From Brachionus manjavacas (lineage: Eukaryota > Rotifera > Eurotatoria > Ploima > Brachionidae), in contig JAHQIY010000004.1 in NCBI GenBank assembly GCA_019054805.1, positions 8,502,501 through 8,566,500 of the forward strand: a stretch of 64,000 nucleotides of DNA. Direction: 5' to 3'. The notes beneath the pieces are model-generated. The model searched no databases. It saw only the letters and a program-made list of their open reading frames with translations, and was not told the origin of the DNA. Below are positions 1,444 to 62,958 of the stretch, in pieces (the stretch's first letter is position 1; each line of letters starts with the position of its first letter). Position numbers and translations under genes: made by a program.

Positions 1444-2464
1444 TAATTCTGAATTTGAATAAGTTGCCAGAAAATGTGGCAAATCTAAGTCAATCACTGG
1501 TTTCAAAGCGGCTTTTGATACATAATTGTCTGCTACAAATCCACACTGTCGAATGACATGCAAATTTTTAGTAAAATCAAATTTTGTTTAAAATATTTTT
1601 TTTATTTTCAGAATAATTTTTAGAATATTAGAGTTGAAATTTTCAAGTATGTCAAAATAGCTAGATCGAAATAGCTTAAATTAAAATTAATAAGTGTCAA
1701 AAAAGCTATCAATATCGCTAAATTGAAAACAAAAATTCGCTAATACCAAAACAAAACAGCTAAATTTATTTAAGAACAAAAAAAAATTATTTATACTTCG
1801 TTACAAAAATTCTAAGATAATCAAATTAATATTTCAAAACAGCGATTAATTAATTAGAGTTTCTTAAATATGTGCTTTATTATGATTAGATAACATGTTA
1901 ACATTTTTGAAAAAAAAAAGAATTTTAGTTTTGTTGTATGCAAAAATAAAATAAAATTAATTTTAGTTATTTTGACATAGAGCCGAAATTTTGTTGGTAA
2001 AAAGCTTAATAAAATTTCAATCTAAAGGTTATTTTTAAATAATTTAATTTGATTAATTAAAATATTTTGCACTTTTTATTTTTGAACAAAATTGTCCAAA
2101 CATCAAACTAAAATCTTTATTAGATGAAAATTATAAATATAAATCAATTAGAATACCTAATATAAATATAAATCAATTTTTACCTTTTTTTTCAAATAAT
2201 TCAATTTTTTCATAGGGCTCAAACTTTATTGAAAAAATAACAACGAAATCATTTTTGATAAGATAATGAAGATTATAGATGATTTTTATAACCGAAGGCT
2301 GCTTAGAATAGGCTCTCTATAAAAAGCAACACTTACTAAAGCAAAATTAAATTTATTTTTTAAACACATAATATTCACTGAATACTGATATAATACTAAT
2401 AAAAAAAATAACCCATAACTCATGCATTCTGAAAATCAAGTGAGGCATAACTAAATTGAAGATG
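1444..2464. repeat. Left copy of ~1.02-kb direct repeat flanking a LINE
   Basis: This 1,021-base segment recurs in the same orientation at 5791-6809. By eye the copies are essentially identical; the one difference found is a poly-A run of 10 bases here against 8 in the other copy. The match begins at the TAATTCTG string and ends at GATG, beyond which the sequences are unrelated. The segment is AT-rich, with no gene I can support. The LINE occupies exactly the space between the two copies. Confidence 0.95.
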
Positions 2465-2466
2465 CT

Positions 2467-2691
2467 AAAGTCCTAAAAGAATATGATGATTATAGAAATA
2501 TTTATATAAATCAAGATAAGACTTTAAATGAGTGACTAATTGAAAGTAAATTACGCTCCGAACGGAATAAACGCAACGATGGCCTAAATTCTGTTTCTGG
2601 GAGGCATCGATTTCAAGATGATGGTGAGAAGAAGTGGTACTGGGGAATCCGCAACGGTGAACTCAGGAAAATTGAAATCAAAAACAAATAG
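2467..2691 (+). pseudogene. 3' fragment of LINE ORF1, with one in-frame TGA
   Basis: One frame reads from the truncated left end of the element to a TAG at 2689-2691, broken by a TGA at 2533-2535. The peptide carries the pattern EYDDYRNIY, then after the stop a charged stretch ending with WYWGIRNGELRKIEI. The closing G-x-x-W-x-x-x-I-R-x-G-x-x form resembles the C-terminal end of CR1/L2/Jockey ORF1 proteins, which act as RNA-binding chaperones. The N-terminal part is missing. This frame is +1 relative to ORF2 and overlaps it by about 30 bases. Confidence 0.55.
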
Positions 2692-2723
2692 ACATTCAGC
2701 TGTTGGGGGCGGGCAACCTGCTG
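2679..2723 (+). promoter_or_regulatory. Candidate -1 ribosomal frameshift site between LINE ORF1 and ORF2
   Basis: The ORF1 frame ends AAA AAC AAA TAG. The heptamer CAAAAAC at 2679-2685 is one base from the classic A AAA AAC slippery sequence, and slipping back one base enters the ORF2 frame. Eleven bases downstream a stem-loop can form: CAGC 2697-2700 with GCTG 2720-2723, and GTTG 2702-2705 with CAAC 2714-2717, around a G-rich 8-base loop. ORF2 has no ATG until 3549, after the whole endonuclease domain, so some recoding or re-initiation is needed. Function is inferred from layout only. Confidence 0.4.
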
Positions 2724-5696
2724 CACATCAAAAATCTACCAAACCAGGAATTAATTCAAATATCCTCCCCTTACACTAACCATACCTGCACATGGCAAGA
2801 TAAACTTAGTTTCATATTTCTAAATCCCACCTCACTTGTTAATAAATGGGCTGATTTCAATTCTCTAATTATTAACCTTAAATTCCCCCACGTAATTGGT
2901 GTAGCTGAAACATGGTTCAATGGTTACTCCATCACCGACTTGCCGGGTTACACTAAGTATCTTAGAAACAGGGAAATTGCCAGAGGAGGAGGTGTCGCTC
3001 TGTACATCAGAAACGACATTGCATCTTTTGAAATAAAATTAAATCACAATGATAGCGAGCAAGTTTGGTGTCAACTAACCATAAAAAGCTACAAATTACT
3101 AATTGGTTGCGTTTATCGCCCTCCACATGCGGATTACATCACTAGCACTAGCATTAACAATGCCATTATTCATGCCAAAAAATTAGTTGACACAAAAAAA
3201 CAAAATGGTCTAGTTGTCCTCGGTGACTTCAATTTTTCGGACATTTTATGGTCGAACCTCGGTGGCACTTGCAAAGGTAAAGGAAGGAACTCAAGCATTG
3301 CCTTCCTAGACACTCTATCTGATAACTACCTTTACCAACTTACACTTCTTCCGACTTTTGGTGCAAACACTCTGGATCTTGTACTCTGCGATGACTCAAC
3401 TAGAATTTTCCAAGTCAACATAGGACCTTATCTCAGCTGTTCCAGCAAAAACATTCTGCATAACACACTAAATTTCGACTACCACTTAAACACACACCTA
3501 CCGGCTCCAGAATATGAAGCCAAAAGAATCTACTCAAAAGGTAACTATATGGATATGATCACAGAGCTAAACCTTACTGACTGGTACACCCTATTCGAAA
3601 ACTTGACCACCGAAGAAGCCTACGAGGCCTTCCTTCAAAAATACAAAAAACTGGTTGAAAAGCATATCCCAGTTATTCACGTCTCTAAATCATTCAGATT
3701 TAAAAAGGCTATTCCTAAGTGGTCAAATCCGCAAATCAAGAAGATAACAAAGGAAAAATTTAAGCTTTTTTCCAAACTAAGGGCGGCGTCTAAGAGTGCA
3801 GCTATTATTCTGAGATCCGCCTACAAAAAAAAATGCTATGAAGTTAAAAAATTAGTAGCAGAGACAGTGTTAAGTTATGAAAAGAAAATCGCTAAACAAT
3901 GCAAATCCAACCCAAAGCTTCTATACTCGTATATTAATGACCAAAAGAAATGCAAGGACAAGATTAGATATCTTGTTGACCGGAAAGGAAAACAGCTGAT
4001 TAATGAAGAAGATATTGCAAACTGTCTTAACGAAGCCTTCTACAACTCTTTCAACACTGTAACTGTAAGTAAACAACCACAACTATCATCAAGAACACAA
4101 ATTATTTTTGACATGAACCCATATGATGTTTTCAGCTGTCACAAAATAGGCAAATTACTCTCTGAACTGGATACTCATAAATCAATCGGATCCGATCTGG
4201 TTCATCCTAAAGTCCTAATAGAATGCAGTGTTCCCCTGGGCCCGGTCCTGTCATTTCTTTTCATTAAATCTTTCGATGAAGGTGTTGTCCCAGCCATATG
4301 GAAGAAAGCCAACGTGACGCCAATATTCAAGAAAGGCGTGAAAAGTGATCCCAGCAACTACCGTCCTATTTCCCTAACCTCTATAATAGGCAAAATCATG
4401 GAGAAGCTAATCCGCAATGAAATGATGGCTCACTTGGAAGCAAATAAACTGCTCACAAATGAGCAACATGGCTTTGTCTTTGGTAAGTCATGCACCACCA
4501 ATCTTTTGGAAAGTCTAGACTTGATCACTGAAGCCTTAAACCGAGGTTTTCAAGCATTAGTTGTGTTCCTTGACTTTGCCAAGGCTTTCGACAGTGTGGT
4601 ACACGACTTACTGCTGACCAAACTTGAATGCTATGGCTTTTCAGGTAAAATTCTTAATTGGCTCAAAGATTTTCTAACAAATAGAACGCAAAGAGTAACT
4701 GTTGGTAAATCTAGCTCAAAATGGCTAAAGGTCCTTAGTGGTGTGCCTCAAGGATCGGTCCTTGGACCGTTGCTATTTATCGTTTTCATAAATGACATGC
4801 CTGAATCAGTACGAAATACTTGTAAACTTTTTGCTGACGACAGTAAACTTATCTCCACAATACGTAATTCGCTTGACCTGAAACTTGCTCAAGAAGATAT
4901 TGACAATATAGTTAATTGGGCTGACACTTGGCATATGAAGTTTAACCAAAAGAAATGTAAAATTATGCGATTTGGATCAAAAGGCACCCTTCAAATACCT
5001 TTCACCATGAAAATAGATGCTTCACACAGTCATGTATTAGAACAGACGTCTGTGGAAAGAGATTTAGGTATCATGATAAATAATAAGCTTAAATGGACTG
5101 AGCAGATAGACAAGGCAATCCAGATGGCTAATGGAGTCCTTGCTCAACTCAAAAATGCCTTTAAATTTTGGACAACGGACAACTTTAGAAGACTCTTCAC
5201 TGCGTTTGTAAGACCACATCTTGAATACTGTACAGCAGCCTGGAATCCTTTGCAAAAGAAAGACATTAAAAGGCTGGAAAAGGTCCAACGTAGAGCTACC
5301 AAACTAGTGCCTGGTCTCAGAAATCTCAATTATTTCTCAAGATTAGCAAAAATTGGTATCCCTACGCTTGAAAGTAGAAGGAAAAGAGGTGATGCAATCC
5401 AACTATTCAAAATTGTCAGTAAACAGAGCACTGTTCACCTGCATGCCTTCGCAGATTCAAGCCAAACTCCTAAAATCAATCACTCATCGATGAATCTACG
5501 TAAAAAACCAAGACTCAGGAAGCAACTTTGCTTGTCAAGACCTAGAGAAAACTTCTTCACGAACAGAGTAGCTTCGTTATGGAACGAGCTACCGGACACT
5601 GTAGTTTCTGCAAAATCAACAAATGCATTCAAAGACAAGTTTGACAAATTCAGATCCCAGCAATTGGCGGCTAATGATACTACTATAGTCGAATAA
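2703..5696 (+). CDS. LINE ORF2: endonuclease-reverse transcriptase
   Basis: About 1,000 codons open from a stop at 2658; 2703 is a TTG near the left limit and the first in-frame ATG is 3549, so the true start is uncertain. The N-terminal third is an APE-type endonuclease: the family's Asn/Arg-Ser-Leu block appears as FLNPTSLVNKW, followed by AETW, YRPP and GDFN (about residue 174) and a NTLDLVL block. Where the family usually has catalytic Ser-Asp-His, I read Ser-Ser-Lys at about residues 247-249. The reverse transcriptase follows, with LDFAKAFD (623-630), GVPQGSVLGPLLF, and FADD (710-713) carrying the catalytic aspartates. The C-terminal block RRATKLVPGL and closing NRVASLWNELPD are CR1/L2-like. 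The protein would copy LINE RNA into nicked chromosomal DNA. The RT looks intact, but endonuclease activity is doubtful if the alignment is right. Confidence 0.92.
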   Translation: MGAGNLLHIKNLPNQELIQISSPYTNHTCTWQDKLSFIFLNPTSLVNKWADFNSLIINLKFPHVIGVAETWFNGYSITDLPGYTKYLRNREIARGGGVALYIRNDIASFEIKLNHNDSEQVWCQLTIKSYKLLIGCVYRPPHADYITSTSINNAIIHAKKLVDTKKQNGLVVLGDFNFSDILWSNLGGTCKGKGRNSSIAFLDTLSDNYLYQLTLLPTFGANTLDLVLCDDSTRIFQVNIGPYLSCSSKNILHNTLNFDYHLNTHLPAPEYEAKRIYSKGNYMDMITELNLTDWYTLFENLTTEEAYEAFLQKYKKLVEKHIPVIHVSKSFRFKKAIPKWSNPQIKKITKEKFKLFSKLRAASKSAAIILRSAYKKKCYEVKKLVAETVLSYEKKIAKQCKSNPKLLYSYINDQKKCKDKIRYLVDRKGKQLINEEDIANCLNEAFYNSFNTVTVSKQPQLSSRTQIIFDMNPYDVFSCHKIGKLLSELDTHKSIGSDLVHPKVLIECSVPLGPVLSFLFIKSFDEGVVPAIWKKANVTPIFKKGVKSDPSNYRPISLTSIIGKIMEKLIRNEMMAHLEANKLLTNEQHGFVFGKSCTTNLLESLDLITEALNRGFQALVVFLDFAKAFDSVVHDLLLTKLECYGFSGKILNWLKDFLTNRTQRVTVGKSSSKWLKVLSGVPQGSVLGPLLFIVFINDMPESVRNTCKLFADDSKLISTIRNSLDLKLAQEDIDNIVNWADTWHMKFNQKKCKIMRFGSKGTLQIPFTMKIDASHSHVLEQTSVERDLGIMINNKLKWTEQIDKAIQMANGVLAQLKNAFKFWTTDNFRRLFTAFVRPHLEYCTAAWNPLQKKDIKRLEKVQRRATKLVPGLRNLNYFSRLAKIGIPTLESRRKRGDAIQLFKIVSKQSTVHLHAFADSSQTPKINHSSMNLRKKPRLRKQLCLSRPRENFFTNRVASLWNELPDTVVSAKSTNAFKDKFDKFRSQQLAANDTTIVE

Positions 5697-5736
5697 CCCA
5701 TTGGTTATTCTTCTTCATCTGATTCTAATATCAGAT
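5691..5736 (+). other. Two tandem 3'-UTR hairpins of the LINE
   Basis: First hairpin: GAATAACC (5691-5698) pairs perfectly with GGTTATTC (5703-5710) around CATT; the ORF2 stop TAA lies in its stem. Second hairpin: ATCTGAT (5717-5723) pairs with ATCAGAT (5730-5736). In CR1/L2-like LINEs, 3' hairpins next to a short tandem tail are thought to be where the RT recognises its own RNA. That role is inferred here. Confidence 0.75.
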
Positions 5737-5748
5737 TGTAGTCTCTCC

Positions 5749-5791
5749 TTCATATTCATATTCATATTCATATTCATATTCATATTCATAT
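5749..5791 (+). repeat. TTCATA microsatellite tail of the LINE
   Basis: About seven head-to-tail copies of the hexamer TTCATA close the LINE and run directly into the right copy of the direct repeat. Short tandem tails instead of poly-A are characteristic of CR1/L2-type LINEs. Confidence 0.9.
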
Positions 5792-6809
5792 AATTCTGAA
5801 TTTGAATAAGTTGCCAGAAAATGTGGCAAATCTAAGTCAATCACTGGTTTCAAAGCGGCTTTTGATACATAATTGTCTGCTACAAATCCACACTGTCGAA
5901 TGACATGCAAATTTTTAGTAAAATCAAATTTTGTTTAAAATATTTTTTTTATTTTCAGAATAATTTTTAGAATATTAGAGTTGAAATTTTCAAGTATGTC
6001 AAAATAGCTAGATCGAAATAGCTTAAATTAAAATTAATAAGTGTCAAAAAAGCTATCAATATCGCTAAATTGAAAACAAAAATTCGCTAATACCAAAACA
6101 AAACAGCTAAATTTATTTAAGAACAAAAAAAAATTATTTATACTTCGTTACAAAAATTCTAAGATAATCAAATTAATATTTCAAAACAGCGATTAATTAA
6201 TTAGAGTTTCTTAAATATGTGCTTTATTATGATTAGATAACATGTTAACATTTTTGAAAAAAAAGAATTTTAGTTTTGTTGTATGCAAAAATAAAATAAA
6301 ATTAATTTTAGTTATTTTGACATAGAGCCGAAATTTTGTTGGTAAAAAGCTTAATAAAATTTCAATCTAAAGGTTATTTTTAAATAATTTAATTTGATTA
6401 ATTAAAATATTTTGCACTTTTTATTTTTGAACAAAATTGTCCAAACATCAAACTAAAATCTTTATTAGATGAAAATTATAAATATAAATCAATTAGAATA
6501 CCTAATATAAATATAAATCAATTTTTACCTTTTTTTTCAAATAATTCAATTTTTTCATAGGGCTCAAACTTTATTGAAAAAATAACAACGAAATCATTTT
6601 TGATAAGATAATGAAGATTATAGATGATTTTTATAACCGAAGGCTGCTTAGAATAGGCTCTCTATAAAAAGCAACACTTACTAAAGCAAAATTAAATTTA
6701 TTTTTTAAACACATAATATTCACTGAATACTGATATAATACTAATAAAAAAAATAACCCATAACTCATGCATTCTGAAAATCAAGTGAGGCATAACTAAA
6801 TTGAAGATG
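5791..6809. repeat. Right copy of ~1.02-kb direct repeat flanking the LINE
   Basis: 1,019 bases matching 1444-2464, shorter by two A residues in one homopolymer. It starts at the last base of the LINE tail and ends at GATG (6806-6809), after which the sequence diverges from the left copy, where the LINE begins. Confidence 0.95.
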
Positions 6810-28200: not shown

Positions 28201-31200
28201 AGTGCCATCCTTAGAAGAATTAAGACCCAATTTGCCGATGTCTTCGAATGACAATGATGTTTTTCCAATCGGAATTGAAATTAGCTTAAACTCCCAAAAA
28301 GAATTCGAGTTTTCCACGCGAGCAAAGCGACCACCTAGTCCCCTTTTATTTTGTTTGGCCGATACAGGCTTTTTGTCAACATTTTACGTAATAAATTTGG
28401 CCATGTCCGATAAAACCGTGTGCAAAGCGGCAGAAAAATTGCCTTACACCCAAATGAAAGCCTCTCTTTTACCAACGCCTCAACCAAAAGTGTCAACATT
28501 TCAAAAAGATTCAATTTTTTCATCTATCAATTCTCAAGCTTCTTTTCAATTCAAACCAAACGAACAACAAACGGCCGCTCCATCAATATTCCGTACCTCG
28601 GATTCAATTTCATTATCAAAAATTGAACAGCCAAAAGAAAATGTACCAAGCCAGCCTTTAAACCTTCTACCCAAGGATACACCAATTCATCAACAGCAGG
28701 CACCTAACAATTTTCCAAAATTTGAACAGCCAAAAGAAAATGTACCAAGCCAGCCTTTAAACCTTCTACCCAAGGATACACCAATTCATCAACAGCAGGC
28801 ACCTAACAATTTTCCAAAATTTGAACAGCCAAAAGAAAATGTACCAAGCCAGCCTTTAAACCTTCTACCCAAGGCTCCATTAATTCATCAACAGCAGGCA
28901 CCTAACAATTATCCAAAATTTGAACAGCCAAAAGAAAATGTACCAAGCCAGCCTTTAAACCTTCTACCCAAGGATACACCAATTCATCAACAGCAGGCAC
29001 CTAACAATTTTCCAAAATTTGAACAGCCAAAAGAAAATGTACCAAGCCAGCCTTTAAACCTTCTACCCAAGGCTCCATTAATTCATCAACAGCAGGCACC
29101 TAACAATTTACCAAAAGAGATTTTACAAAATGTTCCATCTTTACAGCTTCTATCACCAGCTCTGCCTGATATCATGCGACAACAGCCAGTCAAAAAAGAG
29201 ACTAAATTGGTTCAGTCAAACGAAAAAGATGCTGGTCCAAAGACAGATCAAATGAGGGATGATATTTTGGCCAGTTTTGATCGGGAAATGCAAGAATTTA
29301 AAGAAAGTGTGAAAAAATTATTCGATGGAAAAGACTTGTCAAAAAATTTAGTTGATTTAAAGGTCATTAAAGAAACAAAGCATTCGATGGAAATTTATGA
29401 TAAGCTGAATGAAGAAATGGTTCAATTTGGTGAAATTTGCTCGAGTGCAAGATCGGCTTTGTTCACCAATTTTAACAATTTGGAAATGCTACGCTTGCTA
29501 AAATTCAATATAGAAAATAAAAAAGGTATCAGCTTGATTAACCAGTTCGACCACGATCCCTATATCAAGTCCAAATACGAAAATATCAAAGCAATGTATA
29601 CCAAGTTTGATTTGGAAATGGCTGATTTGAAGGAGCGTTCAGGATACCGACGGTATGACACTAAATTCAATAATTACAGAGAAATTTACGCGAAAATTTG
29701 TGCTCTGGATAAAAATGTGACCGAACAGAACCGAAAATTGAACAGGCTCATGGAACAATTGAAATCAACTAGAGTTGGTAAAAATGTTCTGCATGAGTGC
29801 AATTTAAGTTCGCCGAGAAAAAAAGATGAGGAAAATTCAGCACACATCAATTCAATTTTAGACAGAATAAAGAAAAAAAGTGAATTGAAATTGCTAAGTG
29901 GAAAAATGTCCGATTTAAACTTGGACAAGGAGATGAGACAAAAATGTGAAAAAAACTCTAAACTAAACTCTCAATTGTATGATAGACTGAAAAAAAGAAA
30001 AACAGTACCTAAACAGCTGGTTAACATAGGCCAACTTGAATCAATCGCTTCAAAGTACATTGAATCAAAATCAACCCAAGTGCCACTTAATGATACCAGC
30101 TTTTTGCATTTTAATCAAGCATCGCCGAATGCTAGCCGGGTCTTGGATGGTTCGATACAGCAAAAGCCTTTGCAAATTCAGCAAATGCCACAATTAAGAG
30201 AAATTCACACGCCAATACAGCAAAAAATCAATCAGCCTGTGTTTTTCACAAACCAAGTTCAACAAAAAGAAAATGAGACCCTGACCACAAGCACTCCGGC
30301 TCCTTCTGCATCATCTGCATTTTTTTCTGGCTTTGGTCAAACAGCTAAGCCATCTATTGCTGATAATTTAGCCTACGCCCCTAACCAAAATCAGTCTCAA
30401 GCCGTAGATAAGCCTATGTTTAATTTCAGCCCGAATCCAACAATTCAAACCGAAATTAAAGCCAAAGCTTCACAGCCTCAGATAACCACGAGCCAAAGCC
30501 ATCCCATTTTTGCAGCTAATAAACCAAAGCCACAAGCACATGAACCCAAGTTACATGAAGAAAACAAACAGCAGCCTTCTGTTCACGACCAAAAACCACA
30601 ACAAAGCCAAACCATCAAACACTTCGAAAGTAAAGAAACTACAAAAGTTGTCTCGAATCAAATAGCGTCTAAATCGACAGAAAAAAAAGATTTATTTAGC
30701 TCTAAATCAGCTGAGAATATTAGCAAAGAGCCTACTCAATCGAATTTAAATCCACCTGAACCGGCTAAACAAGTTGAAGCTGTTGAAACTAAGCCATTAA
30801 TTACAAAGTTAAAATTAGCTCCAGAACAACCTGTTAAGCTACCTGAGCAACAAAATACCCAGCTATTTAAGGCCAGTACAGCAGCGGAAAAGAAAAATGA
30901 ACCAGCAATTTTACCAAAGCCTAAAGAACAAGCGTTTGCTTCCGCAGATGCTCAAGTCAAGTCTCTTGAGCCAGTTGACTTGGAAAAAAAATCTTCAGCT
31001 TTTAAAATTAATTTTGGCTCGAATCAATTAGCGGGACAAGATCTGGCAAAATCTGGAACTAAAGACGAAAAAGTATCTGTTCAAGAAACACCTTTGTTTG
31101 GCACTGGAACAAATTTTTTAGCTGAACAAAAACCAGCTGAAAAAACCAAAGAACCTGCTAAACAAAATGAAAATTTGTTCAATAATTTTTCTACTGGGGA

Positions 31201-32841
31201 TTCTAAACAAGCAGCTGGAAGAGCATTTGGATCCGGTTTTGCCAATACGCCTGGAGGCATATTCGGCACCAAGACTGAAGCCAAACCAGCTTTTGCATCA
31301 ACTTTTTCCTCCACCAAGCCTGCTACTAATCCATTCGAGAGTAAAGAAAAAGAACAGTCTAAGTCAAGTATTGGCTTAGATGCTGGCCAGTCTGACAAAC
31401 CATCTGAGACAAAAGAAACTTTTGGAATTGAGCAATCTGCCAAGCAGTCAGATGCAAAAGAAAAAGATGTAAAAGCGACAGAATCGTTGGATTCAACGAG
31501 TGCCGAATCGGACAAAAAAATTGAGCCATTCGGGCCATCAACCCCTATTCCTTTATTTGAAACAGGAAACTTGACAAAATCTGATTTTAATAAAGATAAA
31601 AAAGAGGAAACAAAATCCGAGACAAATTTATTTGGTCAATTACAGGGAAATAAACCACCAGCATTGGACAAGTCTAGCTTTGGTGCATCAGCAGCTTCTC
31701 AATTTTCATTTAATCTTAACCAAGCTAAAGCTGAAGATAAGAAAGACACAAATGCTGAAAATGCCAAGTCTGTTGTTGAAGAGCCTAAAGACGAAAAAGT
31801 ATCTGTTCAAGAAACAGCTTTGTTTGGCACTGGAACAAATTTTTTAGCTGAACAAAAACCAGCTGAAAAAACCAAAGAACCTGCTAAACAAAATGAAAAT
31901 TTGTTCAATAATTTTTCTACTGGGGATTCTAAACAAGCAGCTGGAAGTGCATTTGGATCCGGTTTTGCCAATACGCCTGGAGGCATATTCGGCACCAAGA
32001 CTGAAGCCAAACCAGCTTTTGCATCAACTTTTTCCTCCACCAAGCCTGCTACTAATCCATTTGCAGCAATTGCTTCTCAAAAACAATCAGCAGCAGAAAC
32101 TGATGCAGACATGGATTCTTCATCGGTTTTGCCGTCAAATGATCTGTCATTTGGAGGCTTTGGTCTAGGCTCATCGAAGCCAATTAATGAGCCGACAAAA
32201 AATGTGTTTGGAGGAGTACAATTCTCAGCAGGTTTCACCAAGGACACAGCTAAATCGGCATTTGGAGGAAGCGTCATTAAAAATGCTACATTTTCAAACT
32301 CGACCCAACAAACAACCGTGAGTACTGGCTTTGGCAATATTTCAAGCTCGACAACTACTTCTACTGGAGGTAATTTGTTTAGCGCATTTAGTTCGCCAGC
32401 TAAGGCAACATTCGGCGCCGCACCGACTTTCGGAGGTTCTCCTGGATTCGGTCAGCCAGCTTCATTTGGAGGATCAGCAACTTTTGGAGCGCCGTCGGCG
32501 TTCAGTGCAAAGCCGACGTTTGGATCTACTTCTGCAAAGTACTTATTTAATTTTGATGTGAGTTAATTTGGATTAATTTTTTGAATAAAGCACGCCTACC
32601 TTTGGTGCTTTGTCATCTGGCACTACACCAAGCTTTGGTGGATTTAGTCAGAGCTCGTCAAACACGGCAACTGGTTTCGAAGCCCTAGCAGCTCAAAATC
32701 AATCTGGATCACTTTTTAGCTCATTTACAGGTAAATATTTTATCAATTTTATTTTTTGTCTAAATTTTTCAAATTTTTCTTTAAGCTAATCCAGGGACAG
32801 GATTCTCAAATAACTCTTCATTTACAAGCTACCGAAAATAA
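25290..32841 (+). CDS. NUP214: Nuclear pore protein NUP214, 11 exons, 1,832 aa
   Basis: Exons: 25290-25298, 25355-25499, 25550-25785, 26383-26566, 26615-26734, 26784-26884, 26979-27076, 27127-27190, 28193-32538, 32591-32730, 32786-32841. Every junction is GT-AG and phase-consistent. Residues 1 to about 390 form the N-terminal beta-propeller (KYGIVAFGFNN, CWSPTGKSFAYC, NSIKWLAKKEFLVSYND), which in animals docks the DEAD-box helicase DDX19/Dbp5 for mRNA export. Proline/glutamine repeats (463-627) follow, then a charged coiled-coil region (about 675-920) expected to bind NUP88 and NUP62. A long FG-repeat tail (about 1020-1832; TFGAAPTFGGSPGFGQ) acts as transport barrier and exportin dock. The C-terminal GFEALAAQ block is family-typical. 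The ATG exon carries only nine coding bases, the least certain part. Introns are mostly 48-94 nt; intron 3 holds an antisense gene and intron 8 is 1.0 kb of plain AT-rich DNA. Confidence 0.9.
25789..26253 (-). CDS. Antisense single-pass membrane protein nested in NUP214 intron 3
   Basis: 154 residues, ATG to TAG, on the strand opposite NUP214. Residues about 10-33 are a strong transmembrane helix (VLIILSFFLTGLCVSVAILF) followed by a basic stop-transfer patch, so it is probably a signal-anchor with the polar remainder inside or outside. The rest is acidic, then Lys-rich, with a segment DYSKVKSKYWELLNQRKDAK likely helical. I do not recognise it. The reading frame nearly fills the 597-nt intron: its stop lies four bases inside the NUP214 donor, so its mRNA 3' end must overlap NUP214 exon 3. 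The coding-like composition and sensible topology argue against chance. Confidence 0.65.
   Translation of the reverse strand: MFSMRVQLWKAVLIILSFFLTGLCVSVAILFFTCKKFFHKNKISGSANLELTTENQKIDQEIILENVPPVTINEANNEDVSDQNDATVSQSESAIDYSKVKSKYWELLNQRKDAKFKNFLHKSKKPFLGYNSAAIQERKNSSLNESKRINSEKF
28622..29116 (+). repeat. Five 99-bp (33-aa) tandem repeats inside NUP214
   Basis: Five in-frame copies of a 33-residue unit beginning FEQPKENVPSQPLNLLPK. Units come in two types, one with DTP and one with APL after LLPK, in the order A-A-B-A-B. This suggests that a two-unit block was itself duplicated. DNA identity between units is very high, so the expansion is recent. Confidence 0.95.
31059..31335 (+). repeat. 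277-bp segmental duplication in NUP214 FG tail, copy 1
   Basis: Matches 31785-32061 with two differences noticed, both amino-acid changing (QETPLFG against QETALFG, and AGRAFG against AGSAFG). The unit encodes about 92 residues with FG/GFG motifs. The copies sit 726 bases apart, in frame. Confidence 0.95.
31785..32061 (+). repeat. 277-bp segmental duplication in NUP214 FG tail, copy 2
   Basis: Second copy of the segment at 31059-31335, in frame. The match breaks right after the NPF codons at the right and at the codon before Lys-Asp-Glu-Lys at the left. Confidence 0.95.
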
Positions 32842-37493: not shown

Positions 37494-38936
37494 TTAAAAA
37501 GATTTAAAATAAATTAAAAAATAAACAAAACAAAAAGCAATAAAACGTTTATCTGCCCATTTATTGTAGGCACTGCTGTTTTCCAATTCACAGGAATAGT
37601 CTTTTAAATTTTGGCAAAGATTTGACTCATAGTTTAGCTTTCGGCTGCACTTACTCCATTCATTTAAGTCACAATCACTAAATAAATTAATATTTAAATC
37701 AGACAAATAATTGACTATCTCACAGTCACAATTGTTCATGCCACTGGAATTGTTCGAGTTGAAAAAAATGGTCAAGCGAGAGCTCTTAAGCTGATTAAAC
37801 ACACAAGGGTCGAGTTTTTGCATTGGATTATTGTCCAAAATCAAATATTCAATCTCAATGGGACCAGTCCGAGAGCAAAAGGCCTTTTTATCAAATGAAT
37901 CTATTTGATTGTTTGACAAGTCAAGTCTACTGATGGTCGAAATCGGCAGGTCACTTCGATCTAGCGCAAATTCACTTAGAAAGCGCAAATTTTGATTTGA
38001 CAAGTCGAGCTCGGCTAAATTCACCAAGTGTCTTAAATCTGGAAAAAAATTCAAGTTATTAAAGCCAAGACGCAAAATTCTCAAATTGATCATATTTTCG
38101 AATGATTTTTGCTCAATGTCAGATATCATGTTGTTGGTGAGATCCAAAAAAACCATGTTGTAATTCATGCTAAAAGTTTCCTTTCTTATTTTTTCAAGAT
38201 GATTGTTGGATAGAATAAGCGCCTTGGTTTTTTGTGGCACACCATAATCGGTCAAGTCAGACAAAATGTTATAACTTACATCAATGTAATACAACTCCTG
38301 CATAACACTCAAATCTGGTAGTATTTCCAACCTGTTACCAGACAAAAATAGAGTTTCCAGTGTGGACTCAAGAGGCTTGAAAATGGCATTATTTAGTTCA
38401 TTTAGCTGATTGTAGCTTAGGTCGAGGGTTTTTAGGGAATTGAGTTTTGAAAATCCGCCTGGTTCGATCAGAGATAGGCGATTTTTGGACAAAATTAGAG
38501 TGTTCAAGGTATCCAATGGTGCGAAGGCTTGATTTGGAATTTTGGTTAATAAATTTTCACCCAAGTTCAAATCCTCGAGGCCAATTATGCCTTGGAAATT
38601 GCTGGCCGAAATAGACTGGATATTGTTCTGCTGAAGGTCTAGTCTTTCAATCAAAAGACGGTCAAAAACGTTTTCCGGAATCTTGGAGAGGTTGAAGCCG
38701 GAAATTTTAAGCTGCTTTATTCTGTACTGATAATGAATGCTGATCAATCGAGAAGGAAATTGATCTGTTCGGTTTGAGCCATATCCATCGCAATCAATGT
38801 CCACCACTATGTTCTTGTAGTTCGAGTCAGAGTTTTTTGTGTGTTCACAATCTTGGAACAATGGCTGGATGTCGAGATGGTATGCGCTTTTTAGTAGACA
38901 TATTAGGACCAAAAACTTAATCATATCAAGATGCAA
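37494..38936 (-). CDS. Secreted leucine-rich-repeat protein, paralogue 1
   Basis: Intronless, 480 residues. An N-terminal hydrophobic signal peptide (residues about 5-20, IKFLVLICLLKSAYHL) leads to a cysteine cap and about 12 LRRs of roughly 24 residues (LxxLxLSxNxL form, e.g. LKTLDLSYNQLNELNNAIF). A C-terminal cysteine cap (NCDCEIVNYL to YSCE, about residues 403-455) is followed by a short spacer and a hydrophobic end (RFIAFCFVYFLIYF), which could be a GPI-anchor signal or membrane segment. It is thus a likely cell-surface recognition or adhesion protein. It shares the blocks ALDRSxxxxS and KKAFCSR with the genes at 47.7-49.3 and 61.2-63.0 kb. The start used is the first ATG; the second Met (codon 5) would give a slightly cleaner signal peptide. 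Confidence 0.88.
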   Translation of the reverse strand: MHLDMIKFLVLICLLKSAYHLDIQPLFQDCEHTKNSDSNYKNIVVDIDCDGYGSNRTDQFPSRLISIHYQYRIKQLKISGFNLSKIPENVFDRLLIERLDLQQNNIQSISASNFQGIIGLEDLNLGENLLTKIPNQAFAPLDTLNTLILSKNRLSLIEPGGFSKLNSLKTLDLSYNQLNELNNAIFKPLESTLETLFLSGNRLEILPDLSVMQELYYIDVSYNILSDLTDYGVPQKTKALILSNNHLEKIRKETFSMNYNMVFLDLTNNMISDIEQKSFENMINLRILRLGFNNLNFFPDLRHLVNLAELDLSNQNLRFLSEFALDRSDLPISTISRLDLSNNQIDSFDKKAFCSRTGPIEIEYLILDNNPMQKLDPCVFNQLKSSRLTIFFNSNNSSGMNNCDCEIVNYLSDLNINLFSDCDLNEWSKCSRKLNYESNLCQNLKDYSCELENSSAYNKWADKRFIAFCFVYFLIYFKSF

Positions 38937-47696: not shown

Positions 47697-49283
47697 TTAG
47701 CTAAAAAATTTGTGAAAAATAAAATAAAAAAAAAACAACAAAAACAAATTTAATAATTTAATAACATGAAAATTTGCCACCGACTTAACAACAGTTAAAT
47801 TATTTGAAATAGACAAATCGGCTTTTGTTTCCAATTCGTAGACTAAATCACCATTGTAAGTGAAATTCTCAAAAGAGCTATTAAATGGAAATGTTCTTGA
47901 CCAGAACAGGCCGTTCATGTGGCTCGGCGTGGTCAAAAAATTGCTCGAAAAGCACTCAAATTCTTTTTGAGCCTTACATAACTTGTGCACAAAGTCCACA
48001 TTGTTGGTCGAGTAGCCGCCACAGTCGTACTGGCTTAGATGCGCCACAGTTCCATCATCTGCCGCACACACGCCACTCAACTCGACCAGCCTACTTGCCC
48101 TGCTTATTTCGCATGCACACTTCATCAAAAAGCTGTCATTTTCCTCATTCAAAATTACCTTGGTCATTACTTTGTGTCTCGGCAGCATGGGCTCAGTGAA
48201 GCCTTTGAACAATTGGCGCAAAATGCACTCGCTTACACTTTGTACTAAATTCGAGCTCAGGTCAATTTCTTTCAAGTTGGCATAGGGTCTTTTGGCAAGC
48301 TTGGAGCAGAACGCTCGGCTCTCTATCCTCTCTATGCTGTTGTTACTTAGCAGCACTTTTTTTATCGGCTTTCGATTCGAGTATCTATCAAACGCATAGT
48401 TGTTTATAACTTTTATTTCTTGTCTCTGGGATGACAAATCTACCAACTCCAAATTTTCCAATGTGAAGAAGATGCGGCTCGGTATGTGTTTTAAACTGTT
48501 TTGTTTTAGGTTAAGAACAAGCAAGGACTTTAAATTGACAAACGAATTTTCAGCAATGGCACTGATCTCATTCGCTTCCAGATTTAAATATTCTAAATTG
48601 ACTAAATTTTGGAACGAATTGTCATTTAGTTGTTTTAGGCGATTTTTTTCTAATCTAAGCTCGATTAGACTCGAGGGAAGTAGATTTTTGTAGGTTTCCG
48701 AGTCGAGAAGACTCTCGACATAATTTTCCGCAAGACTTAGCCTGGTCAGATTGGTGTCGACAAAATTGGGCACATAAATAAGCCTGTTCTTGTCCAAATC
48801 AAGATTTTTCAGTCTGTGAAGCTTTTTGGCCAGACTGGTCAAGCGAATTGATTCCATTTGAGTTAAATAGTTGTCGCTCAGCACTAGCGTTTCAAGCGAG
48901 TTCTCGATTGGAATAAAAGTGTTAGAGTTCAGGTATCGCAGCTTGTTAGAGCTTAGATCTAGCTCTGCTAGTCTGAGGATGTCGCGGAAAGTGTCCGCGG
49001 ACAGTTTGTAGATGTTGTTGTGGCTTAGGTCTATTCTGAGCACGTTTAGGTCTGCGAAGCGGTCATCTGGCACCATTTGCAGCCCGTTGCCGCTGATGTC
49101 TATGACCATGTTGTCCAGATAGGTTTTGCCGATGCGCCGCTTCGGGAACATGGTCAGAAAGCCGTCGCGCGGACACCGTATTGTGTCTCTCGTACACAAA
49201 CAACCAAGAAATATACAGTCCGAGTAAAGCTCAACCTGGCTTAAGTATGCACACAAAACAAGGCTCATCCAAACAAAAAACAT
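47697..49283 (-). CDS. Secreted leucine-rich-repeat protein, paralogue 2
   Basis: Intronless, 528 residues. Signal peptide (about 1-19, FVWMSLVLCAYLSQVEL), an N-terminal cysteine cap (CIFLGCLCTRDTIRCP), then about 13 LRRs (e.g. LRIDLSHNNIYKLSADTF, LEYLNLEANEISAIAENSF). The shared block YAFDRYSNRKPIKKVLLSNN with RAFCSK marks the family. The C-terminal cap (CACEISRASRLVELSGVCAA to FEC, about 395-455) matches paralogue 3 closely. An Asn-rich stalk with several N-glycosylation sites and a very hydrophobic end (LLNLFLLFFFYFIF) suggest a GPI signal or membrane anchor. Role inferred: extracellular binding or adhesion at the cell surface. Its first half is richer in G and C than surrounding DNA. Confidence 0.88.
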   Translation of the reverse strand: MFFVWMSLVLCAYLSQVELYSDCIFLGCLCTRDTIRCPRDGFLTMFPKRRIGKTYLDNMVIDISGNGLQMVPDDRFADLNVLRIDLSHNNIYKLSADTFRDILRLAELDLSSNKLRYLNSNTFIPIENSLETLVLSDNYLTQMESIRLTSLAKKLHRLKNLDLDKNRLIYVPNFVDTNLTRLSLAENYVESLLDSETYKNLLPSSLIELRLEKNRLKQLNDNSFQNLVNLEYLNLEANEISAIAENSFVNLKSLLVLNLKQNSLKHIPSRIFFTLENLELVDLSSQRQEIKVINNYAFDRYSNRKPIKKVLLSNNSIERIESRAFCSKLAKRPYANLKEIDLSSNLVQSVSECILRQLFKGFTEPMLPRHKVMTKVILNEENDSFLMKCACEISRASRLVELSGVCAADDGTVAHLSQYDCGGYSTNNVDFVHKLCKAQKEFECFSSNFLTTPSHMNGLFWSRTFPFNSSFENFTYNGDLVYELETKADLSISNNLTVVKSVANFHVIKLLNLFLLFFFYFIFHKFFS

Positions 49284-51290
49284 TTCATTTAGAAAAAAAA
49301 TTTATTTTTCAAACAAAAGTAGACAACATTTTATTTTTTATTTTTTTTTAAATTAAATAATTTTTTTTTATTTTTTTCTTAACAATCATTCTAAAATAAT
49401 AAAAATAAAATTAGTCGAAATGCAAAAAAAAATATAACTTATTGAAAATTTACTATTTATTAGAATTTTGTTGGATTTTCAAAGTAGATTTAATCGAGCG
49501 AGTAGCTAATATCTGAATAGAATAATTTATGAATTAGACCCGAAATTTTTCAGACTAAAATTGTTCTATCTTATCATAAAAATTTCAGGAATGATTGCTC
49601 GGTCGAAATGGAGGAGCGACACAAGCACTGTTCCACAGCCGCCAAGCGGATAGGTGATTTTTTGTTCCTACTTTTTTTCAGGACTTGCACAAACAGAACA
49701 AGCAGCTTGAGCTCTCTTCTGAGTAGGATCGATTGAAAAAAGAGAATCAATCGAACTGTTTACATATTTGATAAAACATTTTTTTACTTATATCAGAGAT
49801 TTTGTTTTCATTTTGGTATCTCGAGTGCATTCTGGAATAAACAATGAAAATTAATAAGGAATTTTACCTAATCGAACTATAAAAATCGGCAATAAGCATA
49901 TGATTAATCAAAATATCATATCAATTAAATAAGTTTGTATAGATCCATTTAATTAGGAATCGCTCAAATATTTTGGTTACAAGCCATCAGCTCTAAATTA
50001 AATCGAAATTATACTCTTTTTGGAATAGTTGGGCTTACTTTATTGATGAAAATTGTTTATTTAACACATAAAAACGATTAACTGACGCCTTTGCAGCCTA
50101 AATCTTGCCTGTTTTATTCTTTAATTACATAATATGGAATTTTGTTTGTTTATCACTTAAATTTTTCTTAATCCATTAGTACATACCTAAAATTCCGCTT
50201 TTCTTGAAATGAAAAAAAAGTTCCAGTTAGATTTTTAAAATTAAAAATTCTTTTCTTTAATTCAAATTAAAATAAAACAATAATTTTCAAAATTCAAAGT
50301 TAATTATGGTGAATGAAAATTTTCAAAAAAAATTTAATTTTGAAAATTTTTGTATACCGCATTATTAGAGTTTAAAATTAGCTAATTTTCAAAGTTAAAA
50401 AATAAATTAAGCAAAAATTCTAAAAAATTAAAACTCGAAAGTTACATAAAAATTACATGTAATGACAATAACTCTTTCCATGCTTAAAAAATATATTTAA
50501 TATCTATTCAAATATCACTTGGGTAATCAAAATGAAAGAATAAATACGAAAAAATATGAAAATTTCCTTTCTCAAATTAAGTTATATAAACAGGTTAATC
50601 ACATGATCATTCTTTTTTATGAAATAATGACCAAAAATAATTTTTCAAATTTTTTGGCATCTCTATTTTTTATTAAGGATAGTTAAGGATTATTAAAAAA
50701 ATTATTAATTCTTTTAATTTAAGTAAAATTGCGACGTTAAAATTGACCCAAAATATTTTAAAATGTAAGAAGTTAAGATAAAAATTGAAAGACAATTATT
50801 AGTTAGATTTTTAAAATGTCTAGGTTTTTTTTTATATACCAGACATTGAAGCTAATTAAAAAAAAAAACTTATCTTATTCTTTTTGATTTTATAGATTTA
50901 TATTTTAAAATGAATTGTCTGAAAAACTATTAACGAAAGCTTTTAATCGAATTTGCAGAAATTTGATTAGAACATCAAGTGACTTCAGAATATGAGCACT
51001 TAAAAAATAATTTAATTAAACTTTTTACTAAATTTACTAAATAAAAATTATTTGAAAATTTTTTAAGAAAATAAAAATTTAATCTTCTTATAAAACTTGG
51101 TCGAGTTCTAAATGGCTTCTACTGAATCAATCAATCTCAATGAAAAACAAAGTATCGAAATTTTTTTTTTATAGCTATCAATAAGTATTCCTTTTGCTAA
51201 TTGATTTAAACTGCTACTTCGTTTCATCAAGTTTAACCGTTTTGTTTAAATAATATCTTGATGAATATTTTTCGATAAAGTTCTATTCTA

Positions 51291-51486
51291 TGTTTGTTGA
51301 GATTTATTTCCTTTTAATTAAAACTGATTTTGGATTTAGCATTTGGAATGTCAATTCAACTAAAAAACATTACCATACTTTGGAAAAATTAGTTGTAAAT
51401 TTAAATAGAAGTATTCTAAAATAACATCTGTTTAAAAGGCTTCTATTGCAAAATGTTTAAACAAAAATTAATCTCTTTTAAACTTT
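51291..51486. repeat. 196-bp direct repeat, copy 1
   Basis: Matches 52288-52483 along its whole length with scattered changes (TGTTTGTTGAGATTTA to CTCTTTTAAACTT; shared core TTTTGGATTTAGCATTTGGA). The copies are about 1 kb apart in the same orientation. No coding content and no terminal repeats, so it is either a local duplication or a small dispersed element. Confidence 0.85.
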
Positions 51487-52287
51487 GATCCGTGAGAATT
51501 CATTAATGGGTTTGAATTTAGACAAAATTTGAATAATTGTTAGATTATGTTTTATGCTAAATAAACATCCAAAGGCACAGGATTTTGTTATCCTGAGGCT
51601 TAGCAAACTAAAAGCGTAATATACGCGAAATTAAATTGAGACTTGGGAAAATAATTAAAAATAAGCTGAGTTTGGTTAGTATTTAATAAATTAACAGCAA
51701 GAGAAAGATGTTATCATATAAAAGGAGCCTAATCGAGACTTCATCGATATAATTTCTGGAGTTGTATAACTTTTGATTATTTTTGGAATGCTGTTTGTCT
51801 AGAATTGCAGTTGAATTATTAGAATCTTGAAAAATTATCTTATGTTTATTCTTAGCTTGAGGAAATTTAATTAAAACATCCTTAGAAAACAAAATGGATA
51901 TTTATTCAAAGAGATCGAGCTTTACTTTTAGAATTAAGAAACGTTTGATTCAAAAAAAATTTATATAGAATTTCGTGAATACACAATTCAATTTCATTCA
52001 AATAAAAATGAAATATGTTTAATATTAAAATGACTAAATATCATAAAATTATTGTTTATTTTCTTAAATTTTAAATAATGAGAAAACAAAAGCTTAGGAT
52101 TTTTTATTTTATCAGAGGAGTTCATATTAATTAATTTCGAATCCTAATAAAAAACCAAAACGAAATTTAATAAATTTTAAGCCTTGTCGTAGTTTTAAAA
52201 CTTTTAAAATTTAAGGAAAGATAATTTTCTTTTACTCAATTGAAATTATTTTAAAAAAAATATAAAAAGAGAAAAACTTAAATAATA

Positions 52288-52483
52288 TGTTTGTTGAGAT
52301 TTAATTTTTTTAAAATAAAACTGATTTTGGATTTAGCATTTGGAATGACAATTCAACTAAAAACATTACCATACTTTCAAAAAAGTTAGCTGCAAGTATA
52401 AATAGAAGTATTCTAAAATAACATCTGTTTAAAAAGCTTCAATTGCAAAATGTTTAAAACAAAAATTAATCTCTTTTAAACTT
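52288..52483. repeat. 196-bp direct repeat, copy 2
   Basis: Second copy of the segment at 51291-51486, roughly 85-90% identical by eye. Confidence 0.85.
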
Positions 52484-61203: not shown

Positions 61204-62958
61204 TCATAAAGCCTTCAAGATTAGAGTGACTAAGAGGGCGGACGCGAACAGAAGCCGCGTGTTGCCTCGGGCGCTGTCCGAGCCGTTCAATATGCTCTGC
61301 TTGGTCGGCAGCGTGTTGCTCTTGTCGTTTTTGTTCTCTTTGACTTTTTGGTCGATGACCGGTTCGGGCAGTGGCTTCTCGGCCGGCTCACTGTGCTCGG
61401 CAAGCAGAGGCCGAGTTGTGCTCTGCACAAGCCCGTCTGGTTGTTCGGCCTCGTGCACAAATTGCACTTGGGCAGCAGTTGTAGTTGGCGCCGGGGTCGG
61501 CTGTGGTGTTGTGGTGATGGTGGTGGTGGTGGGCGCCATGGTGGTAGTGGCAGTCGCAGTGGTCTGGCTGGCGGTGCACTGGTACTCGGGCATCGAGTCG
61601 CACTCGGCCTCGACCGCTTCTCTCTCAAAGTTTCCCTGGCAACTGTACGAGCTGAAGGGCACCAACTGGCCGTCGTCCATCAAACAGTGTCCGTCCAAAT
61701 TGACGAACAAACGCGCCTTCTCGAACTCGCACGAACACTTGGTGTGCACGTCGGCATTGTCGAACAAAGTCGACCTCTTGAACACCACTTTGGGTATGCG
61801 GCGATTGAGGCCCTGTATGCTGGAGTGGAAGCCGCGCCACACATGCACAAACCAACACGCGCTCACCTCACTCTCCAGCCGATTGGGCAAGCTCAACTCG
61901 ATCACGTTGATGTAGGCGCGCGACTGATTGCGCGAGCAAAAAGCCCTGTTGCTGAACTCGCCGAGTCGGTTGCCGCTCAGATCAATTGACTTGATGAACT
62001 TTTCATTCGATTGTCTGTCGAACGCGAACGCGCTTATGTTGTTCAGCATTTGGTTTTGCGAGGACAAGTCCAGCCGGTCCAGATTGATCAGAGTGAACAG
62101 AAATTTGTCGGGCAAGTGTTTGATGTAGTTGCGAGCCAGATTGATGGAGACGAGCTCGGCCAGATTGTGAAAAGCGGTCGCGTCTATGTGGCTGATTTGG
62201 TTGCCGTCCAGCGACAAGTACTTGAGCTCTCTTAGATTGGACAGTGTGTCCGCTTCGATGGACTTGAGGCGATTGTGGTCCAGGTTCAGGTCGCTCACAC
62301 TCGACGGTATTTGAGTCAAGTGTTCGATTTGGTTTTTGGACAGAGACAACTGCTTCAGCTCGTTCATGTGGCTTATGAGCGGCATTTGAGTGAGGCCGTT
62401 GTGAGCCATCTGCAGGGCGGACAGCGAGCCCAGGCCCTTGAACACGTGGCTGAGCTGCGCCGGGTCCATTTGGCCCAAGAGGTTGTTCTCTATTTTGAGA
62501 GAGCGCAGCTCGAATGTGCCGTGGCTGAACGCGTCCGCCTCGATCAGCTCTATTTGGTTGGCGGACACGTCCAGCGCCACGAAGCCCTGCAGACCCCGCA
62601 GCGACTTGTTGCCGATCACGCTTATCTCGTTCAGATTCAGGTCCAGGTACTGGACGTCGAGGCCCGCGAACGCCTCGTCCGGTATCGAGCGAATTTTGTT
62701 CGACTGAAGGTCGAATATGTACACGCGCGCCTTCCGCGCTTCGGCCGAGTTGGCGCGCACAGGAAAATTGCCAATTTGGTTGTTCTCTTCGTAGCGACAG
62801 TAGATGTCGTAGATTTTGGACGCCTGTTCGTTTGACTCCAGAATTTCGTCCTGCATCACGTCCCCAGTGCACTCGCACTTCTCGAACAAGCAAAACTCCT
62901 CTTGGCCATGCGTCGCACCGTACACGCACAATAACAAACAAAAAATTAGAATTTTCAT
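61204..62958 (-). CDS. Secreted leucine-rich-repeat protein with Thr-rich stalk, paralogue 3
   Basis: Intronless, 584 residues. Signal peptide (1-18, MKILIFCLLLCVYGATHG), N-terminal cap with CLFEKCECTG, then about 12 LRRs (e.g. LKYLSLDGNQISHIDATAF). Next come the family block FAFDRQSNEKFIKSIDLSGN with RAFCSR and a C-terminal cap (CSCEFEKARLFVNLDGHCLM to YQC, about 398-456). A Thr/Pro-rich mucin-like stalk (about 458-495, TTTMAPTTTTITTTPQPTPA) follows, then a charged spacer and a small-residue site (NGSDSARG) before a hydrophobic end (LLFASALLVTLILKAL). This is a good GPI-anchor signal. The gene is strikingly GC-rich for this window, unlike paralogue 1. Role inferred: surface recognition or adhesion. 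Confidence 0.92.
   Translation of the reverse strand: MKILIFCLLLCVYGATHGQEEFCLFEKCECTGDVMQDEILESNEQASKIYDIYCRYEENNQIGNFPVRANSAEARKARVYIFDLQSNKIRSIPDEAFAGLDVQYLDLNLNEISVIGNKSLRGLQGFVALDVSANQIELIEADAFSHGTFELRSLKIENNLLGQMDPAQLSHVFKGLGSLSALQMAHNGLTQMPLISHMNELKQLSLSKNQIEHLTQIPSSVSDLNLDHNRLKSIEADTLSNLRELKYLSLDGNQISHIDATAFHNLAELVSINLARNYIKHLPDKFLFTLINLDRLDLSSQNQMLNNISAFAFDRQSNEKFIKSIDLSGNRLGEFSNRAFCSRNQSRAYINVIELSLPNRLESEVSACWFVHVWRGFHSSIQGLNRRIPKVVFKRSTLFDNADVHTKCSCEFEKARLFVNLDGHCLMDDGQLVPFSSYSCQGNFEREAVEAECDSMPEYQCTASQTTATATTTMAPTTTTITTTPQPTPAPTTTAAQVQFVHEAEQPDGLVQSTTRPLLAEHSEPAEKPLPEPVIDQKVKENKNDKSNTLPTKQSILNGSDSARGNTRLLFASALLVTLILKAL

Follow-up and report, generated by a model that had tools for sequence, protein, structure and literature searches.

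Kilobase direct repeats at the ends of a 5'-truncated LINE in Brachionus manjavacas: a probable duplication of the target made at insertion

A LINE copy in the genome assembly of the rotifer Brachionus manjavacas is bordered on both sides by direct repeats of about 1 kb, which raises the question of how a duplication of this size came to flank a single element. The locus was analysed in a window of 64,000 nucleotides (contig JAHQIY010000004.1, positions 8,502,501 to 8,566,500, assembly GCA_019054805.1). The features are listed in Table 1. The first-pass annotation had placed the ends of the LINE at the inner borders of near-identical direct repeats of 1,021 and 1,019 bases, and this was borne out by self-BLAST of the window. 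The two repeats, referred to as copies of the target unit, aligned in direct orientation with 99.8% identity, a single gap and an E value of 0. The sole difference between them was two A residues missing from one A-run (window 1910-1911). Zero bases lie between the LINE and either unit copy, and the direct repeats adjoin both element ends exactly.

Table 1. Coordinates of the LINE, its parts and the flanking sequences, as window positions
Feature	Position	Strand	Details
Target unit, first copy	1444-2464	.	1,021 bp; 21.7% G+C; self-BLAST
Target unit, second copy	5791-6809	.	1,019 bp; self-BLAST
Old degenerate dispersed repeat, LINE remnant by eye	1123-1555 (approx.)	.	Spans the left border of the unit
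5'-truncated LINE, family A	2465-5790	+	3,326 bp
ORF2 open frame, putative APE-type endonuclease and reverse transcriptase	2703-5696	+	997 aa from TTG; Pfam PF03372, PF14529, PF00078
Endonuclease domain, aa 60-237	2880-3413	+	PF03372 match
Reverse transcriptase domain RVT_1, aa 545-756	4335-4970	+	Pfam PF00078
3' tail (TTCATA)n	5749-5790	+	Young copies carry tails of this kind that differ in length

The element was assigned to a family here called family A. It is classed from its sequence as an APE-type LINE (non-LTR retrotransposon), with a single ORF predicted to encode both an APE-like endonuclease and a reverse transcriptase, a 3' end shared by the copies and variable 5' truncation. The Pfam matches in the ORF2 frame were PF03372 (E 2.2e-9), PF14529 (E 1.7e-7) and PF00078 (E 4.8e-35). 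Young copies of family A had the same kind of (TTCATA)n 3' end and differing 5' starts. Target-site duplications (TSDs) are scarce in CR1 elements. The short-unit 3' tail of family A resembles the CR1 octamer microsatellite motif as given in PMC4316615. Family A is a candidate member of a CR1/L2-like clade. Copies L002 and L003 carry 638 further bases upstream of the base equivalent to 2465, with one common starting point. Position 2465 is therefore the 5' truncation point of the window LINE, and the same extension ruled out the window LINE as a full-length copy. A frame of 269 aa starts in the extension and continues into the part kept by the window copy; by eye it was taken as the putative ORF1. 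At the 5' junction of the window LINE, TG is common to target and element.

SDH is the usual catalytic motif of the endonuclease. The GDFN, LDLV and H (aa 253) of the family A endonuclease aligned with those of relatives. At the place of the expected SDH motif family A copies read SSKNILH, and the D was absent in these copies and in the relatives that were read. A dead endonuclease with the catalytic histidine lost was considered and dropped, because ten more distant LINE pieces carry an H that aligns with the one in family A, in most cases behind a gap of two residues. Searching PDB sequences for the endonuclease region gave no match below E 0.4. In the LINE families of this genome among L047-L086 with the endonuclease end read, the D of SDH was missing and the H was kept. 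The nearer LINE set reads K[ND]xLH or similar and the more distant set KGH, QGH, RCH, SH or YH.

The genome searched comprised 114,169,980 bases in 61 contigs. The best 40 of 119 candidates for the target unit included two full-length copies, both in the window, and 38 partial ones. Within the same 40, the best partial match had 77% identity over 213 bases, and most others fell within the first 112 bases, with 74-87% identity. The weak matches at the left end of the unit arise because an old dispersed repeat runs over the border at 1444; alignments of this repeat to L013, L014 and L016 cross that position at 66-74% identity. The left border thus lies within another repeat and only two full copies were present among the scored matches, and the unit is therefore ordinary target DNA. 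On the same two observations the unit was rejected as a repeat or LTR in its own right.

Elsewhere in the window, tandem in-frame 99-bp repeats with a unit of 33 aa were present at 28612-29116 in a long frame (28202-32566), which is rich in FG motifs and looks nucleoporin-like by eye. This frame also contains a 277-bp direct repeat (31059-31335 and 31785-32061, 99.3%), which is an in-frame internal duplication and not a pair of element flanks. A direct repeat of ~200 bp was found at 51289-51485 and 52286-52483, with 91% identity and 800 bp between the copies. Three frames on the minus strand (37494-38936, 47697-49283 and 61204-62958) looked leucine-rich-repeat-like by eye and are possibly a small gene cluster.

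Other family A copies were found among the matches listed when the 5' part and the 3' part of the LINE were each used as a genome query. The upstream and downstream flanks of 30 copies were compared, with up to four best matches per copy; L005 was not included, since its 3' end was not retrieved. Copies with at least 98% identity over 321 bases near the 3' end were classed as young (16 copies among the best 40 of 83 candidates). The borders of the 14 older copies were taken as the BLAST ends and are less certain. Long direct repeats were present at the ends of four of the 30 copies, namely the window copy (1,021 bp, 99.8%), L028, L018 and L040. By age these were three of the 16 young and one of the 14 older copies, and all four were 5'-truncated.

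The L028 repeat (contig C1) is 141 bp long with 100% identity and adjoins the LINE exactly. Only its two local copies were present among the best 40 of 221 matches, and two bases (CA) are common to target and element at the 5' junction. Of the three further cases only L028 matches the window copy in cleanness. At L018 (contig C4) the repeat (181 bp, 98.3%) stops 118 bp short of the LINE border, and in the filler between 21-22 bp of the LINE start are repeated. It sits within a dispersed repeat. The flanking copies are 98-99% alike compared to 89% for the best other copy among the matches listed, and a local duplication therefore stays the better reading for L018. The L040 repeat (contig C5; 62 bp, 96.8%) stops 8 bp short of the border. 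L040 is an older, 3'-truncated copy, ~90% like the window LINE; in the search on the uniqueness of its repeat no L040 match was among the matches listed, most of which were taken up by the L018 repeat. The other 26 of the 30 copies had no clear long direct repeat. A weak 22-bp match of 86% near the 5' end of L002 may be an ordinary TSD. The duplication length was not constant across family A copies (62, 141, 181 and 1,021 bp, and none clear in 26 of 30).

The flanking repeats of other copies had been proposed as a check in the first-pass annotation, which read the repeats as a possible TSD. This check yielded three further copies with repeats of 62, 141 and 181 bp. The TSD reading is supported by them. 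The single locus of the unit among the scored matches and its left border inside another repeat make an independent repeat less likely.

The usual outcome of family A insertion was different. In 18 copies that lack a long repeat (the 13 young ones and five others), the exact match at the junction was at most 7 bp, with a mean of 3.6 compared to 3.1 in mismatched flank pairs. Thirteen of the 16 young copies had no junction-bound duplication above 7 bp. An ordinary TSD overlooked because of wrong borders was rejected, as a tolerant search gave a match of at least 9 bp in one of 16 copies (L002) with a null of ~1%, and the L002 match was a 9-bp A-run off the junction. Duplications exceeding the 1.5-kb flanks were also rejected as the reason for the missing repeats, since flank searches gave no second local copy among the scored matches. 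The downstream flanks (200 bases each) of the 13 TSD-less young copies had no second local near-identical copy among the best 40 of 3,656 candidates, where each flank found itself and one dispersed repeat filled much of the list. The upstream flanks were searched with 160 bases each (best 40 of 3,410 candidates), and the locus of L003 itself was absent from that list.

Three young copies (L022, L024 and L046) have upstream relatives of 96-97% identity without the LINE. Compared to its LINE-free paralogue, L022 has lost ~2 bp (0-3) and L046 has 3-5 bp duplicated. For L024 the range is from a loss of 3 bp to a duplication of 2 bp, and a few extra bases are present. All three junctions were read by eye, the comparators are paralogues and not alleles, and the downstream side of L024 matches well over only 24 bases. 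This suggests that family A usually inserts near-bluntly, at about -3 to +5 bp as judged by eye at these three copies.

A second LINE family served as control. The LINE at 55.7-57.2 kb of the window had been credited with a 16-bp TSD in the first-pass annotation, which was confirmed. To this copy were added 13 loci taken from 47 matches listed, chosen as short and 96-100% alike. One copy was counted per locus, which leaves out the second one at L087. One rule was applied to both families, an exact match of at least 9 bp at the junctions, with mismatched flank pairs as the null (~1%). An exact junction match of 9-16 bp was found in 11 of 14 control copies compared to one of 16 family A copies, the latter being the A-run off the junction (Fisher p 9e-5, with the three long-repeat family A copies counted as lacking a short match). 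With the long-repeat copies dropped the family A count was 1/13 (p 3e-4), and with the window control copy also dropped, as it had drawn attention for its TSD, p was 1e-3. At L087 and L099 the match is only 9 bp and lies 20-26 bases past the BLAST end. The control flanks were ~100 bp, too short to speak against long duplications in the three unmatched control copies. A control family with ordinary TSDs in the same genome means that the odd pattern of family A is not general to the host. At L087 (contig C14:2098500-2099520) two control-family copies lie ~143 bp apart with a shared downstream flank and an odd A-rich tail. This looks like a tandem duplication of the LINE 3' end and flank with ~31 bp of filler.

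The two 1-kb repeats in the window are thus best read, with good though not complete confidence, as a duplication of the target that would have been made once, by the insertion itself. An origin at insertion is supported because the repeat borders coincide with the LINE ends exactly in the window and at L028; at L040 they agree to within 8 bp, and at L018 filler lies between. This reading and the two-outcome picture given below are based on few family A copies.

In the proposed sequence of events a LINE copy would integrate at 1443/1444. Target-primed reverse transcription would start from the strand nicked there and halt short of the 5' end of the element. In the usual family A case the second break would lie almost opposite the first, giving a near-blunt insertion. 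In the window case the upstream end joined to the cDNA would have reached 1,021 bp beyond the first nick, leaving these 1,021 bp on both sides. The cDNA would remain on the downstream end. The upstream end would be extended by repair synthesis on the sister or homologous chromatid or, alternatively, be replaced by the end of a second break on the sister chromatid. It would then be joined to the cDNA through the 2 bp (TG) of microhomology. End joining would be suited by the 2-bp sharing at the 5' junctions of the window copy and L028 and by the L018 filler with its repeated LINE start. The exact borders, the unit at one locus among the scored matches, the 5' truncation, the microhomology, the long repeats elsewhere and the near-blunt insertion at three copies were read directly; the order of events, the template and the repair pathway are what we infer.

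Repair synthesis or a sister-chromatid break at the upstream end is the most likely route and takes the larger share within the insertion-borne reading. The other route to such a duplication, in which the second cut by the element's own endonuclease falls on the other strand 1,021 bp downstream, with the duplex between opened and filled in, is rather unlikely. It gives exactly the observed geometry, and the two routes leave an identical product. LINE staggered cuts can be far apart, 126 bp being given for R9 (PMC6895275). It requires the opening of a kilobase of duplex, however, and is opposed by the three near-blunt copies with LINE-free paralogues and by the absence of a junction-bound duplication above 7 bp in most young copies (13/16). 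The variable duplication lengths rule out a fixed long stagger, and the near-blunt norm makes a distant second nick less likely. The first-pass annotation had offered nicks ~1 kb apart or insertion during break repair. Nicks at that spacing were not supported as a property of the element, given the short junction matches (at most 7 bp) at 13 of the 16 young copies and the three paralogue cases. Break-repair insertion would fit better than a 1-kb stagger.

An assembly artefact, with an occupied and an empty haplotype joined and one unit written twice, is improbable. Near-identical units are expected from such a join and the difference of two A residues could be a sequencing error, but the end of the LINE tail and the 5' truncation point would both have to fall on the false join. 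On another contig, L028 is arranged in just this exact way with 141 bp, and similar arrangements are seen at L018 and L040. A unit already duplicated in tandem, with the LINE then landing by chance exactly on the junction, is very improbable: tandem duplication does occur in the window (28.6-29.1 kb), but a hit on one position in ~1,021 would be needed, and likewise at L028, and no further full copy of the unit was present among the best 40 of 119 candidates. Least credible is a later pseudo-TSD by recombination between segmental duplications or element copies, as proposed for the long TSDs of an LTR element in PMC5488345, since with the unit at one locus among the best 40 of 119 candidates no segmental-duplication partner was seen to recombine with.

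With an origin at insertion preferred, it is conceivable, as a tentative reading of these sequences, that family A has two outcomes. Insertion would be near-blunt or would carry a duplication of 10^2-10^3 bp, with nothing clear in the usual 9-30 bp class between, L002 perhaps excepted, and the long class would come from host synthesis past the break before microhomology joining. If this were true, tandem duplications of kilobase size would regularly be started in the germline by LINE insertion. The placement of the second break and the joining of the 5' end are described as poorly understood for LINEs (PMC6895275, PMC2881922). Near-blunt and very long outcomes in one family, beside a family with 9-16 bp, would separate the part of the element from that of host repair. 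Such insertions also offer a simple way in which a LINE can give rise to duplications of kilobase size.

Second-strand cleavage by LINEs is described as downstream, upstream or in line with the first (PMC2881922). The bdelloid rotifer LINE Hebe has TSDs of 7-12 bp according to PMC2861651. Among the titles and abstract openings listed in searches of open-licence papers, no kilobase TSD at a natural germline LINE insertion was found. Closest in kind are human L1 insertions in HeLa cells, where 5'-truncated insertions were often accompanied by short TSDs, by deletions or by TSDs of extreme length (Gilbert et al., according to PMC2912911). The explanation cited there is the healing of an abortive intermediate by microhomology-mediated joining (PMC2912911). 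Both systems show 5'-truncated LINE copies with radical changes of the target including very long duplications. The L1 cases, in contrast, are cell-culture events, and in the same account TSDs of 10-17 bp are given for the insertions that were full-length or 5'-inverted (PMC2912911). The family A case is a genomic copy of another LINE family, near-blunt at the three copies judged.

In a tumour, a tandem duplication of 22.6 Mb has also been linked to an L1 insertion under a sister-chromatid model (PMC7058536). As in the window, the two copies of a direct duplication meet at a LINE, and in that model the cDNA pairs with a sister-chromatid break farther downstream (PMC7058536). The tumour event differs in being somatic and of 22.6 Mb, while the window case is 1 kb and present in a genome assembly. 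HERV-K is an LTR element with an integrase, and unlike family A it does not use target-primed reverse transcription. Its HML-2 insertions with TSDs of 111, 250 and a putative 450 bp (PMC5488345) are like family A in having unconventionally long duplications at single insertions. Rotifer R9, with a 126-bp stagger cited as distant (PMC6895275), shares with family A the long TSD of a LINE. R9 is rDNA-specific with that one cited stagger, whereas in family A the length differs from site to site, between near zero and 1,021 bp. TSDs of extreme length and duplications mediated by L1 have thus already been described, and a kilobase case in a near-blunt family is new. The new point is the near-blunt-or-very-long pattern within one family; the size is exceptional and the kind is known in outline.
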